Shown here: positions 21,684 through 47,497 of the stretch, piece after piece
Layout of the letters: the number at the start of each line of letters is the position of its first letter
How positions within the stretch are numbered: the stretch's first letter is position 1
From: Halorussus aquaticus
GTDB lineage: Archaea > Halobacteriota > Halobacteria > Halobacteriales > Haladaptataceae
Assembly (NCBI RefSeq): GCF_024218795.1
Contig: NZ_CP100400.1
Location: 2,790,001 to 2,854,000 of the forward strand
Direction: 5' to 3'
DNA length: 64,000 nt
The notes under the pieces: generated by a model
Seen by the model: only the letters and a program-made list of their open reading frames with translations
Told to the model about the DNA's origin: nothing
The model's database searches: none
Made by a program: the position numbers and the translations under genes

Positions 21684-23381
21684 ATGGTGGACGGTCACAA
21701 CCTACACGACTACGACGACGTGCGCGAATCGTTCTCTTGGGACGACATCTACGCGGAGGCCGACTGGGACGCGCCCGGGGAACTCAACGTGGGCCACGAA
21801 GTCTGCGACCGCCACGCAGAGAACAGGGAGAAGGTCGCCCTGTATCAGGTGAGCGAGGACGGTGACCTCACGAAGACGACGTTCTGGGAGTTGGCCGACC
21901 GCTCCAGCCAGTTCGCCAACGTCCTCGAAGACCTCGGCGTCGAACGGGGCGACCGGGTGTTCTCGTACATGCCACGGATTCCGGAGCACTACGTCGCGCT
22001 GGTCGGGACCCTCAAGCGCGGCGCGGTGTTCGGCGGCGTCAACGAGCGGTTCGGCCCGGACGGCATCTCGTACCGACTCGACGACTGCGACGCCTCGGTG
22101 GTGGTGACCACGAGCGACAACCGCGAGACGGTCGAGACGGCGCTCGAAGACGCGCCCTCGGTCGAACACGTCGTCACGGTGGACCGCAGCGACGGGTCGG
22201 GCGAGGGAGTGGCCTCGGAGGACGTGGCGTTCGGAGAAGCGCTCGACGCCGCGAGCAGGGAGTACGAACCGGCCGGAACCAGCGGCGAGGACGACGCGCT
22301 GCTCTACTACACCAGCGGGACGACCGGTCCCGCGAAGGGCGTCCGCCACAAGCAGCGGTGGGTCGCTGGCGTCGCGGCGACCCAGAAGTACGCCGTGGAC
22401 CTCCAACCGGGCGACCTCTACTGGTCCACGGCCGACCTCGGATGGCTCACCGGTCCCATCAACACCCTCGGCGCGTGGTTCTGGGGCGCGTCGCTGTTCA
22501 CCTACGAGGGCGAGTTCGACCCCGAGACGTGGGCCGACCTGCTCGACGAGTACCCGATTTCGGTCCTGTTCAGCGTCCCCACGGCCTACCGGATGCTCCG
22601 CGAGAAGGACCACGTTCTGGAGGGCGTGAATCTGGACCTCCGCCACGCGCTCTCCATCGGCGAACCGCTCTCGGCGGGCGTCGTTGACTGGGGCGAAGAG
22701 ACGCTGGGGGTCACCATCCACGACACCTACGGCCAGACCGAGACGGGCAACATGATAATCAACAACTACCCGACGATGGACCTCAAACCGGGGAGCATGG
22801 GCAGGCCCCTGCCCGGCATCGAGGCCGACGTGGTGGACCCCGAGACCGGCGAACCGATGGAACCGGGCGAGACGGGCGAAATCGCCCAGCGCGGCGACTA
22901 CCCCTGCTTCTTCGCCGAATACTGGCAGAAGCCCGAGAAGACGGCCGACTGCTTCGTGGACGGACCGGACGGAGAGTGGTACCTCTCGGGAGACCTCGCG
23001 AGAAAGGACGAGGACAGCTACTTCTGGTTCGAGGGCCGCGCGGACGACGTGATCATCTCGTCGGGCTACCGCATCGGCCCGTTCGAGGTCGAGAGTTCGC
23101 TGGGCGAACACCCCGCGGTCGCGGAGGCCGCGGTCGTTCCCAAACCCGACCGAGAGCGCGGTAACATCGTGAAGGCCTACGTCGTCACGAGCGACGACGC
23201 CGAGGCCGGAGACGACCTCGCTGAGGACATCCGGACACACGTCCGCGACGAACTCTCGGCCCACGAGTACCCCCGCGAAATCGAGTTCGTCGAGGAACTC
23301 CCGAAGACGGTGACGGGCAAGATTCGTCGGACGGAACTGCAGGACGACGCCGAGCAGGAGGCCGAGGTCGAGCAGGAGTAG
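21684..23381 (+). CDS. Acyl-CoA synthetase (acetate/medium-chain CoA ligase family)
   Basis: An ANL-superfamily enzyme that activates a carboxylic acid to its CoA thioester through an acyl-adenylate. Of 565 residues, motifs seen are LLYYTSGTTGPAKGVRH (AMP-binding P-loop), HDTYGQTETGNMI (adenine-binding), WYLSGDLARKDEDSYFWFEGRADDVIISSGYRIGPFEVE (hinge and A8) and PKTVTGKIRRTEL with the catalytic Lys. The WYLSGDLA form and absence of a long N-terminal domain point to the acetate/propionate or medium-chain acyl-CoA synthetase group. It stands alone with its own promoter. The precise acid is not determinable. Confidence 0.92.
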   Translation: MVDGHNLHDYDDVRESFSWDDIYAEADWDAPGELNVGHEVCDRHAENREKVALYQVSEDGDLTKTTFWELADRSSQFANVLEDLGVERGDRVFSYMPRIPEHYVALVGTLKRGAVFGGVNERFGPDGISYRLDDCDASVVVTTSDNRETVETALEDAPSVEHVVTVDRSDGSGEGVASEDVAFGEALDAASREYEPAGTSGEDDALLYYTSGTTGPAKGVRHKQRWVAGVAATQKYAVDLQPGDLYWSTADLGWLTGPINTLGAWFWGASLFTYEGEFDPETWADLLDEYPISVLFSVPTAYRMLREKDHVLEGVNLDLRHALSIGEPLSAGVVDWGEETLGVTIHDTYGQTETGNMIINNYPTMDLKPGSMGRPLPGIEADVVDPETGEPMEPGETGEIAQRGDYPCFFAEYWQKPEKTADCFVDGPDGEWYLSGDLARKDEDSYFWFEGRADDVIISSGYRIGPFEVESSLGEHPAVAEAAVVPKPDRERGNIVKAYVVTSDDAEAGDDLAEDIRTHVRDELSAHEYPREIEFVEELPKTVTGKIRRTELQDDAEQEAEVEQE

Positions 23382-44488: not shown

Positions 44489-45550
44489 TCAGTAACCGCG
44501 CTCGATGAGGTAGTCCGCGATTCCTTCGAGGAGTTCCTTCGACTCGTTGTCGGGGAGGACTTCGAGGCGGTTCTTCCCGGTCTCGACCAACTCCTGCGCT
44601 TTCTCCTTGGCGTAGTCGATGCTTCCGGCCTCTTCGAGACGACCGACCGCCGCTTCGATTTCGGCCTCGGTGACGGCATCGACGTCGTCGGTGCCGACCA
44701 GTCCGTCCACGTCCACGCCCTGCTCGCGGGCGTGGAGCGTGATGATGGTCTGCTTGCCTTCGACGAGGTCGCTCCCGCGCTGTTTCCCGAGTTTCTCGCT
44801 GGGCACCGTCAGGTCGAGGACGTCGTCCTGAATCTGGAACGCCCGGCCCACGTCGATACCGTACTGGTAGAGTTGCTCGATGGTCTCGTCGTCGGCACCG
44901 AGCAGGATGGCCGGGATGGTCGCCGCCGCGCCGTACAGCACGGCGGTCTTGTGTTCTATCATCTGGAGGTACTCCTCGGGGAGTACGTCGTCTCGCCCCT
45001 CGAACGCGATGTCGCGGGCCTGCCCCTCACAGATGTTCGTGCAGGTCGTCGCCAGCACGTCCACCGACTCGACCACGCGGTCGGCGGGCGCGTCGCCCTC
45101 GATGAGAATCTCGAACGCCTTCGAGTAGAGGGTGTCGCCAGCGAGAATCGCGGTCCCGGTGTCGTACTCCCGGTGGACCGCGGGGACGCCTCGGCGCAGG
45201 TCGTCGTCGTCCATGATGTCGTCGTGGATGAGCGTGAACGACTGGATGACCTCGATACTGACCGCGGCGGCCATCACGTCCACGTCCTCACCGTTGACGT
45301 CCGGGAAGTCCCGATAGTCCACGTCTCCGGGGTTCGCGTCTACGTCCGCGAGCGCTTCGGCGACGAGTAACAACACGGTCGGCCGCAGGCGTTTCCCGCC
45401 CGCGTCGAGCAGGTACCGAACGGCCTCGTAGAGACGCTCCGGTTCGTCTATCGGCAGGTCCTCGTCGATGGCCGCGTTGACGATTTCGCGTCGGTGTTCG
45501 ACCGCTCCGAGTACCTGCTCTTCCAATGTCTCGGCGCTCGCGTCAGTCAT
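44489..45550 (-). CDS. idsA: Geranylgeranyl/farnesyl diphosphate synthase (isoprenyl diphosphate synthase)
   Basis: Elongates dimethylallyl diphosphate with isopentenyl diphosphate to C15/C20 prenyl chains for archaeal lipids and other isoprenoids. The 353-residue all-helical enzyme has LLDAGGKRLRP, the first aspartate motif LIHDDIMDDD (D110-D114) and the second QIQDDVLDLT. It lies 1 nt after the RNase J stop (same transcript), so its expression depends on the RNase J leader. Length and motifs fit haloarchaeal IdsA. Confidence 0.95.
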   Translation of the reverse strand: MTDASAETLEEQVLGAVEHRREIVNAAIDEDLPIDEPERLYEAVRYLLDAGGKRLRPTVLLLVAEALADVDANPGDVDYRDFPDVNGEDVDVMAAAVSIEVIQSFTLIHDDIMDDDDLRRGVPAVHREYDTGTAILAGDTLYSKAFEILIEGDAPADRVVESVDVLATTCTNICEGQARDIAFEGRDDVLPEEYLQMIEHKTAVLYGAAATIPAILLGADDETIEQLYQYGIDVGRAFQIQDDVLDLTVPSEKLGKQRGSDLVEGKQTIITLHAREQGVDVDGLVGTDDVDAVTEAEIEAAVGRLEEAGSIDYAKEKAQELVETGKNRLEVLPDNESKELLEGIADYLIERGY

Positions 45551-45551
45551 G

Positions 45552-46904
45552 TTACTCGGCGAGTTGGATGATGTTGCCGTTGCTCGTCACGTGGAGGTCG
45601 CGGCCTAGTTTGTAGCCCTGACTCTCACAGAGGCTCACGTACGGGGAGAATCCTTTCATGTCCTGGTGGGCCGGGATGACGTTCTGAGGCTGGAGCGCGT
45701 CCAGCATCTCGTAGTGGCCCTCCTCGCGGAGGTGGCCCGAGACGTGGATGTCGTCGTAGATGCGCGCGCCCTGCATCTTCAGGAGGCGCTCGGACTGGTA
45801 GCGCTGGCCCTCGTTGGTCGGTTCCGGAATCACGCGGGCCGAGAAGATGACCTTGTCGCCGTCTTCCAGTTCGTACGGCGTCTCGCCGCGGCCCATCCGG
45901 GTGAGCATCGCGCGGGGTTCGCCCTGATGGCCGGTGACGATGGGGAGGTAGTTCTCCTTGCCCTCCTTCATGATTCGCTTGAACGTCCGGTCCACGGACT
46001 TACGGTGACCGAACATCCCCATGTCCTCGGGGAAGTCCACGAAGTCGAGTCGCTCTGCGGTGCCGGAGTACTTCTCCATCGACCGGCCGAGCAGGACGGG
46101 TTCGCGCCCGATGTCCTGGGCGAACTCCACGAGGCTCTTGACGCGAGCGATGTGGCTGGAGAACGTCGTCGCCACGATGCCGCCGTCGTAGTCCTCGATG
46201 GAGGTCATAACGTCTTTGAGGTGACGCCGTGCGACCGATTCGCTCGGCGTTCGACCCTTCCGACCCGCGTTGGTACAGTCCTCGATGTAGGCCAGCACGC
46301 CTTCGCCCTCGCGGCCGATTTCGCGGAAGCGCTTCATGTCGATGGGGTCGCCCAGAACCGGCGTGTGGTCCATCCGCTTGTCGAGACCGTAGACGACGGC
46401 CCCTTCGGGCGTGTGGAGGACGGGGTTGATGGCGTCGATGATGGAGTGAGTCACGTTGACGAACTCCAACTCGACTTGTCCGGAGTCGCCGATGGACATC
46501 GTCTCGCCCGCTTCCATCTTCACGAGGTCGTTCTCGACGCCGAACTTCTGCTCGCCCTGAATCTGCTGTTTCACCAACTCGATAGTGTAGGGCGAGGCGA
46601 CGACCGGCGCGTTGTATCGGTGGGCCAACTTGCTGATGGCACCGATGTGGTCGAGGTGACCGTGGGTCGGCACGATGGCCTGCACGTCGCCTTCGAGGTC
46701 CGACATGACGCGGTCGTCCGGGATGGCCCCCATGTCGATGAGGTCCAGACTGTGCAGTTTCTCTGTCTCGACGTTGTCGTGGAGGAGAACCTTCGAGAGG
46801 TTCAGCCCCATGTCGAAGATGACAACGTCGTCGCCTGCGCGCACGGCAGTACACTGCCGTCCGACTTCTTCGTAACCGCCGATGGTTGCAATTTCGATTT
46901 CCAT
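45552..46904 (-). CDS. rnj: Ribonuclease J (beta-CASP metallo-beta-lactamase RNase)
   Basis: An RNA-degrading 5'-3' exonuclease/endonuclease. The 450-residue protein shows the beta-lactamase core metal motif H81-G-H83-L-D85-H86, [11 protein letters not shown] at the start, [18 protein letters not shown] (beta-CASP) and [14 protein letters not shown], as in archaeal RNase J. The ATG at 46904 is preceded by a possible ribosome-binding AGGUGA and a leader of about 210 nt with strong RNA structure. A frame-extending start upstream would run into that leader and is rejected. It overlaps no gene on the left and is 1 nt from idsA. Confidence 0.94.
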
Positions 46905-46940
46905 AGTTTCACCTTTTGTACGCAAAGCCACGCCGTTTCC

Positions 46941-46996
46941 GTGGTGAAGCCACGCCGTTCCCGCGGCAAGGCCGCGTCGGTTCGTGGCAGAGCCAC
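46941..46996 (-). repeat. Three tandem 13-nt hairpins with a compensatory base change
   Basis: Plus-strand copies are at 46941-46953, 46963-46975 and 46984-46996. In the mRNA they read GUGGC-UU-CACCAC, GCGGC-CUU-GCCGC and GUGGC-UCU-GCCAC. In the middle copy the second base pair is C-G where its neighbours have U-A, a two-sided change that keeps the pairing. Flanking spacers are also similar (around GGAAACGGC, GGGAACGGC, GAACCGAC). An alternative register pairs GCCACG with CGTGGC around 46927-47006, including a perfect GCCACG-N3-CGTGGC at 46992-47006, so two mutually exclusive folds are possible. Confidence 0.7.
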
Positions 46997-47035
46997 GCCA
47001 CGTGGCGTCCGTACGTACGTAAACCTGCTCGGGCG

Positions 47036-47079
47036 CGAGGTCCCGTCCGCGGCGTCTTGCAGCCGTCGGCGGGACCTCG
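47036..47079 (-). repeat. Long hairpin in the rnj leader
   Basis: CGAGGTCCCG (47036-47045) is the perfect reverse complement of CGGGACCTCG (47070-47079). Inside, CCG pairs with CGG and GGC with GCC, giving a stem of about 16 bp with one-sided bulges and an 8-nt loop. This is far stronger than chance spacing would give and is the clearest RNA structure of the leader. Confidence 0.7.
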
Positions 47080-47081
47080 GG

Positions 47082-47095
47082 GTGGCAACAGCCAC
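47082..47095 (-). repeat. Perfect 5-bp hairpin, fourth GTGGC/GCCAC copy
   Basis: GTGGC-AACA-GCCAC on the plus strand; the mRNA reads GUGGC-UGUU-GCCAC. The same stem sequence recurs in the tandem hairpins at 46941-46996, on the other side of the long stem. Confidence 0.55.
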
Positions 47096-47116
47096 GTACT
47101 CCCGAGCTATCGGTCT

Positions 47117-47497
47117 ATGGGGGCTTTACGCACTCCGGTAATAAAAACTGCCGGGATTGACCGAGTTAATCGCGTGATGAAGGTTGCGGTTGGTACGCAC
47201 CGAGCCGAACCGGAACGAATCCAGTAGAGACCGGCACCGTCTCGGAGTCCGAGAACGACCGTCAGCCACGAGCAGAAGGACCGATAGGCCGTCTCGCCCG
47301 GTCTCTCTAACTACTCGCCGAAGTTTAAATGCGAAAACGGAGGTAACTCGGTACGGACGCTTCGTGCGGTCGCTCGGTGCGGGCCGCGAACCGCCAGTCC
47401 GACTAACTCGAAAGAGCTGAGCCAGAATTCACCGCGCTAACCGAGAGAAGGTCAGCGCCACGCACGTCGGGGTATCTTCAGTACACTCGGGACGAGT
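47117..47497. other. Spacer upstream of the rnj leader, no gene seen
   Basis: Contains the rnj TATA candidate and, further right, TTTAAAT at 47324-47330 preceded by CGAAG, which on the plus strand is a good BRE/TATA pair that would start a transcript near 47350 running against the ipk end. No ORF with coding character follows it. An antisense or small RNA is possible but not shown. Confidence 0.45.
47139..47147 (-). promoter_or_regulatory. TATA-like element of rnj
   Basis: Leftward TTTTTATTA places the start site near 47116, some 212 nt before the rnj AUG. It lies between the ipk gene end and the hairpin-rich leader. Confidence 0.5.

Follow-up and report, generated by a model that had tools for sequence, protein, structure and literature searches.

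A conserved structured leader RNA before the RNase J gene of Halobacteria, a candidate cis-regulatory element

Background

Among the ribonucleases of bacteria, RNase E, RNase III and PNPase regulate their own synthesis; the leader of the RNase E mRNA contains a stem-loop to which the enzyme binds, and control of the rnc (RNase III) and pnp (PNPase) genes works by way of the decay of the respective mRNAs (PMC3997798). In Archaea, RNase J enzymes act as 5'-3' exonucleases, and in Haloferax volcanii, an organism that has no exosome, aRNase J is essential; aRNase J alone shows endonuclease activity, and it forms a complex with RecJ3/4 (PMC10470531). The leader described here, which precedes the archaeal RNase J gene rnj, resembles that of E. 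coli rne in being long, structured and placed before the gene of a central RNA-degrading enzyme, whereas the rne stem-loop is known to be bound by RNase E (PMC3997798) and autoregulation of rnj is something that we infer. No relation between the two was found (there is no Rfam match), and the enzymes belong to different families and to different domains of life. To our knowledge, a four-segment switch of the kind set out below has not been described for rne. The autoregulation of rnc and pnp depends on RNase III cleavage of a leader stem, the structure of which is unrelated to that of the rnj leader.

Riboswitches and attenuators that choose between 1:2 and 2:3 pairings follow the same logic of mutually exclusive partners as the rnj leader, which in contrast has no known ligand or peptide and whose distal partner lies near the start codon; a terminator hairpin followed by a long run of U was not seen in the rnj leaders. 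Within the Halobacteria, the S15 leader motif is likewise a structured cis-regulatory candidate predicted from covariation (Eckert and Weinberg 2020, PMC7247131). That motif and the archaeal ribosomal leaders concern other genes and another motif, and the consulted passages of its tables name no rnj leader (PMC7247131).

Rfam 15 gave no match at gathering thresholds in the window, by which is meant the whole 64,000-nucleotide stretch of Halorussus aquaticus DNA analysed here, and none at E <= 0.1 in nine loci covering all leader classes. No description of an archaeal rnj leader was found in the open-licence literature, supplementary tables apart, nor in the consulted passages of papers naming HVO_2724. 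The rnj leader thus appears to represent a family of structured mRNA leaders that has not been described before, a large element conserved across an entire class and located upstream of a nuclease that H. volcanii cannot do without. If the proposed autoregulation is true, it would be, as far as we know, the first autoregulatory leader of a ribonuclease in Archaea.

The rnj locus of Halorussus aquaticus

In the window, rnj is followed by idsA with 1 nt between them, and upstream are genes for two kinases, isopentenyl phosphate kinase and mevalonate kinase. The gap between the kinase gene and rnj is 593 nt, and its rnj-proximal part is made up of a TATA box and a leader of about 214 nt. The features are as follows.

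47139..47147, minus strand: TATA box TTTTTATTA of the rnj promoter (CAGTTTTTATTACC in 28/28 family genomes)
46905..47118, minus strand: rnj leader RNA (z -5.5; match to covariance model R1 at 46980-47114, 48.7 bits, E 2e-9)
47021..47116, minus strand: outer helix AGACC (47116-47112) with GGUUU (47025-47021), closing the 5' domain (minimum free energy fold and family alignment)
47101..47107, minus strand: segment 1 (A), GCUCGGG, paired with segment 4 in the minimum free energy fold and, as CUCGGG/CCCGAG, with segment 2 in RNA of nascent length
47082..47095, minus strand: P2, hairpin GUGGC-UGUU-GCCAC (helix 2 of alignment A4; double changes in 6/6 pairs, 95.6% paired)
47071..47082, minus strand: segment 2 (B), CCCCGAGGUCCC, which pairs with segment 1 or segment 3
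47050..47065, minus strand: P3 tip CGGC-[UGCAAGAC]-GCCG, with the near-invariant octaloop UGYAAGAC and closing pairs that are also nearly invariant across families
47036..47044, minus strand: segment 3, GGGACCUCG, base of P3, which pairs with segment 2
47027..47033, minus strand: segment 4 (C), CCCGAGC, which pairs with segment 1 (distal partner in the best two for 77/107 class I leaders in a rule-based scan)
46918..47014, minus strand: P4, GUACG (47014-47010)/CGUAC (46922-46918) and GCCAC (47006-47002)/GUGGC (46931-46927)
46940..46997, minus strand: three tandem hairpins inside P4 (46997-46983, 46976-46962 and 46954-46940; 21-22 nt apart)
46909..46914, minus strand: Shine-Dalgarno-like AGGUGA, present in most Halorussus leaders and not seen in most other haloarchaeal rnj leaders
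45552..46904, minus strand: rnj, archaeal RNase J, 450 aa (TIGR00649, 412.9 bits, cut-off 400)
44489..45550, minus strand: idsA, gene of a polyprenyl diphosphate synthase, separated from the end of rnj by 1 nt (NF040789, 612.6 bits)

An earlier note on this DNA had placed the leader before rnj and idsA in one transcript, which is likely because the two genes are only 1 nt apart. NCBIfam model NF040789 makes 'idsA' a geranylfarnesyl diphosphate synthase, and a score above its curated cut-off of 560 makes C25 lipids possible. A leaderless start near 46904 had been named as an outcome that would refute the earlier reading; the sole TATA box seen lies at 47147-47139 and points to a transcript start around 47118, 21-29 nt behind it, a position derived from the box alone. 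The status of the RNA as an mRNA leader is taken from this box together with the conservation that begins there: in a family comparison of 28 genomes the promoter and leader are conserved, with CAGTTTTTATTACC at a constant distance from the leader in all 28, and conservation does not extend upstream past the TATA box. In the approximately 350 nt from the kinase gene to the promoter (47148-47497), no conserved feature was noticed in relatives. The leader DNA matches only itself in a genome-wide comparison, and a genome-wide repeat or mobile element was rejected on these grounds.

The long stem at 47079-47036, the hairpin GUGGC-UGUU-GCCAC and the three tandem hairpins reported in the earlier note are all present. 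The minus strand from 46904 to 47118 folds at -112.5 kcal/mol, compared with -88.6 +/- 4.4 for dinucleotide shuffles, none of which (0/200) was as low. The plus strand of the region also scores z -5.2, so folding energy alone carries no strand information, and the strand is given by the promoter, the gene orientation and the covariance model. The 3' end of P4 lies just before the Shine-Dalgarno-like AGGUGA.

Distribution and covariation

The covariance model R1 was built from Haloferacaceae and one Haladaptatus, with Halorussus left out, and it nevertheless recovers the window leader. It finds matches in 160 of the 292 sampled Halobacteria genomes, a lower bound, as some leaders with altered tips score low or escape (e.g., L063 and L138). 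Nearly everywhere there is one match per genome; three genomes have two, and in two of these both lie inside one leader. All of the matches that were checked lie directly upstream of rnj (106/106 with listed rnj coordinates, 40/40 and 3/3, i.e., 149/149), and none of these 149 lies away from it. A second match in the window (22780-22860 on the plus strand, 17 bits, E 0.06) was taken as chance. The same element stands before rnj in named genomes of other families.

These class I leaders run in the order 5' segment CCCGCGGG, P2, segment GCGGG, P3, a variable distal segment, UUU, P4 and AUG, and the P3 tip, CCGACGYGC[UGYAAGAC]GCCGGG, is near-invariant. A pyrimidine bulge in P3 is found elsewhere, and Halorussus and some Halobacteriaceae-like genomes do not have it. 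At the loci examined in other Euryarchaeota the upstream gene ends close to rnj and a similar leader was not seen, and a search of 69 non-haloarchaeal genomes with R1 gave no match; the simplest reading is therefore that the leader was gained in the haloarchaeal lineage. As far as sequence comparison can tell, it is kept, as class I or as the class II described below, in nearly all Halobacteria examined.

The covariation check proposed in the earlier note, an alignment of related haloarchaeal rnj leaders, came out in favour of the structure. When all class I leaders were aligned together with MAFFT, RNAalifold found only 14 pairs because the P2 and P3 arms misalign, and this alignment was replaced by a model of a homogeneous set and an Infernal alignment. 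In the resulting model-aligned set A4, with 87 leaders, 93.6% of cells are paired compared with 79.2% after shuffling, double changes occur in 27/33 pairs compared with 18.5, and there are 297 double-changed cells against 75 shuffled and 38-72 slid, with the proviso that these pair counts are biased upwards, since the structure guided the alignment and the leaders are related to one another. By eye, P2, the base of P3 and P4 differ in sequence between families. In Haladaptatus, CCCGC/GCGGG has become CUCGC/GCGAG and the outer helix is ACUG/CAGU instead of AGACC/GGUUU; the equivalent of P4 elsewhere is GAGCA..GCCAC/GUGGC..UGCUC, and its helices 6 and 7 in A4 have double changes in 9/10 pairs. 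That the rnj leader holds a real conserved RNA structure is virtually certain.

A second leader class and a second RNase J gene

A different leader, class II, occupies the same place before rnj in Haloarculaceae and Natronomonadaceae, which form a single group (support 88) on a quick RNase J tree. Its layout is UAACCGAG...GGYCGCCC-hairpin-GGGCGRCCGGC...CUCGG, then AUG. The pattern occurs once each in 45/292 genomes, the reversed-pattern control giving 0, and it starts 143-248 nt before rnj in all 29 of the leaders checked (29/29). Class II has no octaloop, so there cannot be one recognition element for the whole class of Halobacteria.

A second RNase J gene, rnj2, 82-85% identical, is found on another contig of the Halorussus genome (G000:C4:294326-295666; L030, L208) and in Natrialbaceae (the rnj2 loci also include L031 and L203-L207). 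Its leader is distinct and conserved, with UAACCGAAA near the 5' end and GGACUGCUAUGAUCGGC before the AUG, and these ends are common to the Halorussus and Natrialbaceae copies. Although idsA lies behind rnj in nearly all loci, it is not found behind rnj2 in L030 and L031, the two loci long enough to tell. Since rnj2 has a conserved leader of its own and no idsA, the leader, judged by its gene neighbours, belongs with the nuclease gene and not with isoprenoid synthesis. The tuning of the isoprenoid synthase that had been suggested earlier would be a by-product at most.

Two mutually exclusive pairings

Segment 1 has two possible partners in both classes: a local one, segment 2, or a distal one, segment 4, in which case segment 2 pairs with segment 3. 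In a rule-based scan of 20 class II leaders, in which segment 1 was fixed by position, the local partner is among the best two in 18/20, and a partner located 10-22 nt upstream of the AUG is among the best three in 19/20, in leaders whose length varies twofold, from 141 to 278 nt. For class I, the local partner is among the best two in 80/107 and the distal in 77/107, with each region making up less than 20% of windows. Duplexes 1:3 and 2:4 showed no comparable excess over shuffles; the segments used in a swap test were picked by eye. The survival of both pairings through sequence change is, on this comparative evidence, the strongest sign of function.

When the window leader is folded as a growing transcript, 1:2 forms first, and 1:4 with 2:3 appears from about 95 nt; at full length, the 1:2 fold is 9.5 kcal/mol worse than 1:4/2:3. 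In Halorussus and class II generally, 1:4/2:3 is better by 7-12 kcal/mol, and 1:2 may therefore serve only as an intermediate of folding in these leaders, and in Haloferax the two folds are nearly isoenergetic (ddG 0.1-0.6), all of these energies being for standard salt and not for the haloarchaeal cytosol. Two-state switching is somewhat more likely than not to be used in the cell. The idea that the leader could switch between folds had come with another register, GCCACG/CGUGGC, which is present (47006-46997); the capacity for switching holds, and the conserved switch appears to be the choice of segment 1 between segments 2 and 4, not that register.

Possible mechanisms

The leader is very probably a cis-acting regulatory RNA in the rnj 5' untranslated region, and the best explanation found is cis-regulation with aRNase J as the sensor, to which we give a probability of roughly 0.5. 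In the nascent RNA, hairpin 1:2 would form first and then rearrange; a factor recognizing the octaloop domain in class I would pick the winning fold, or leader cleavage, and this choice would set the translation or the stability of the rnj-idsA mRNA. The likeliest factor would be aRNase J, either by itself or complexed with RecJ3/4, and the outcome would be negative feedback on an essential nuclease, as for RNase E, RNase III and PNPase in bacteria. The chance that RNase J senses the leader directly is an even one. In both classes the leader is tied to the nuclease gene, and the finding of it at rnj and nowhere else points to control specific to that gene. The capacity for both folds has outlasted a complete turnover of sequence in each of the two leader architectures, and a class-wide archaeal switch, in which RNase J, a central nuclease of haloarchaea that have no exosome, would gauge its own concentration and its binding would choose the fold, is suggested only tentatively. 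Haloferax, a model genus for genetics, has the leader (L073-L083), and feedback control of archaeal RNA decay is thereby directly testable; an H. volcanii strain with tryptophan-inducible rnj exists (PMC10470531).

It is unlikely that the leader is an element of stability or translation only, its 5' structure shielding the mRNA from 5'-3' decay or aiding initiation with no sensing involved. The great stability of the folds and the position of P4 directly before the start codon would suit such a role, as would the 5'-3' exonuclease activity of archaeal RNase J (PMC10470531), but a plain barrier needs neither a near-invariant octaloop nor two partners for segment 1, and it would be expected before other genes, whereas this one is found at rnj only. 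Recognition by another trans factor, such as a general RNA-binding protein, RecJ3/4, a helicase or a small RNA, is quite unlikely: the near-invariant octaloop looks like a recognition site and RecJ3/4 is a partner of aRNase J (PMC10470531), yet a general factor should have several targets bearing the motif, and only rnj was found.

Control of rnj-idsA by a metabolite riboswitch, sensing for example an isoprenoid intermediate, is very unlikely. A conserved loop with alternative pairing does resemble riboswitch logic, and the general presence of idsA behind rnj and of mevalonate-pathway genes upstream would fit; against this, riboswitches usually occur at several genes of one pathway, whereas here there is about one copy per genome, at rnj and at no other pathway gene, and the reading is weakened further by the conserved leader of rnj2, which sits on another contig with no idsA behind it. 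Processing of the 5' domain to an independent small RNA, with the mRNA as carrier, is highly improbable, for although this domain is compact, with a short run of U at its end ahead of P4, conservation extends to P4 as well, and in class II the position of the distal partner, 10-22 nt before the AUG, ties the structure to the coding start. Control by an upstream ORF was rejected, as no upstream AUG follows the core in 54/116 leaders and the frames are mixed in the others, and a UUUCNRUG repeat around P4 failed as a universal motif, with two copies in only 56/116 leaders and none in 27.

Variation within the leader

The earlier note had made the tandem hairpins its main point. They sit between GUACG..GCCAC and GUGGC..CGUAC of P4, and the compensatory change reported for them is there, a U-A to C-G double change in the middle hairpin (CGCGGC/GCCGCG compared with CGUGG/CCACG in the other two), which is a comparison of repeat units inside a single leader. 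Among close relatives it is the structure that is conserved, though not the tandem hairpins: across Halorussus species the filling of P4 ranges from 33 to 196 nt and from 1 to 8 hairpins (by a simple counting rule), and most other genera have the P4 stem only. The tandem hairpins look like an expansion of the P4 hairpin, and from this comparison the conserved element is the 5' domain with stem P4, the hairpins being a filling of variable number by the start codon.

Other P4 insertions occur in a few Haloferacaceae. Some leaders of this family (L174, L175, L177, L178, L180-L182, L041 and L070) contain additional sequence, located either within P4 or between P3 and the distal segment, so P4 insertions are not unique to Halorussus. 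In another set of loci (L063, L065, L071, L088, L115, L138, L191, L196, L200-L202 and L209), CCCGCGGG and GCGGG are kept and the octaloop is altered or lost, as in the GGUUAGAC of one genus, and these leaders form a natural set for the study of coevolution with RNase J. In L179 (G041:C3), the rnj leader is interrupted by a repetitive, AT-rich insertion and so gives two partial R1 matches, and in a Haloplanus MAG (L125), the rnj leader, upstream of position 1500, carries the octaloop core hairpin twice in tandem.
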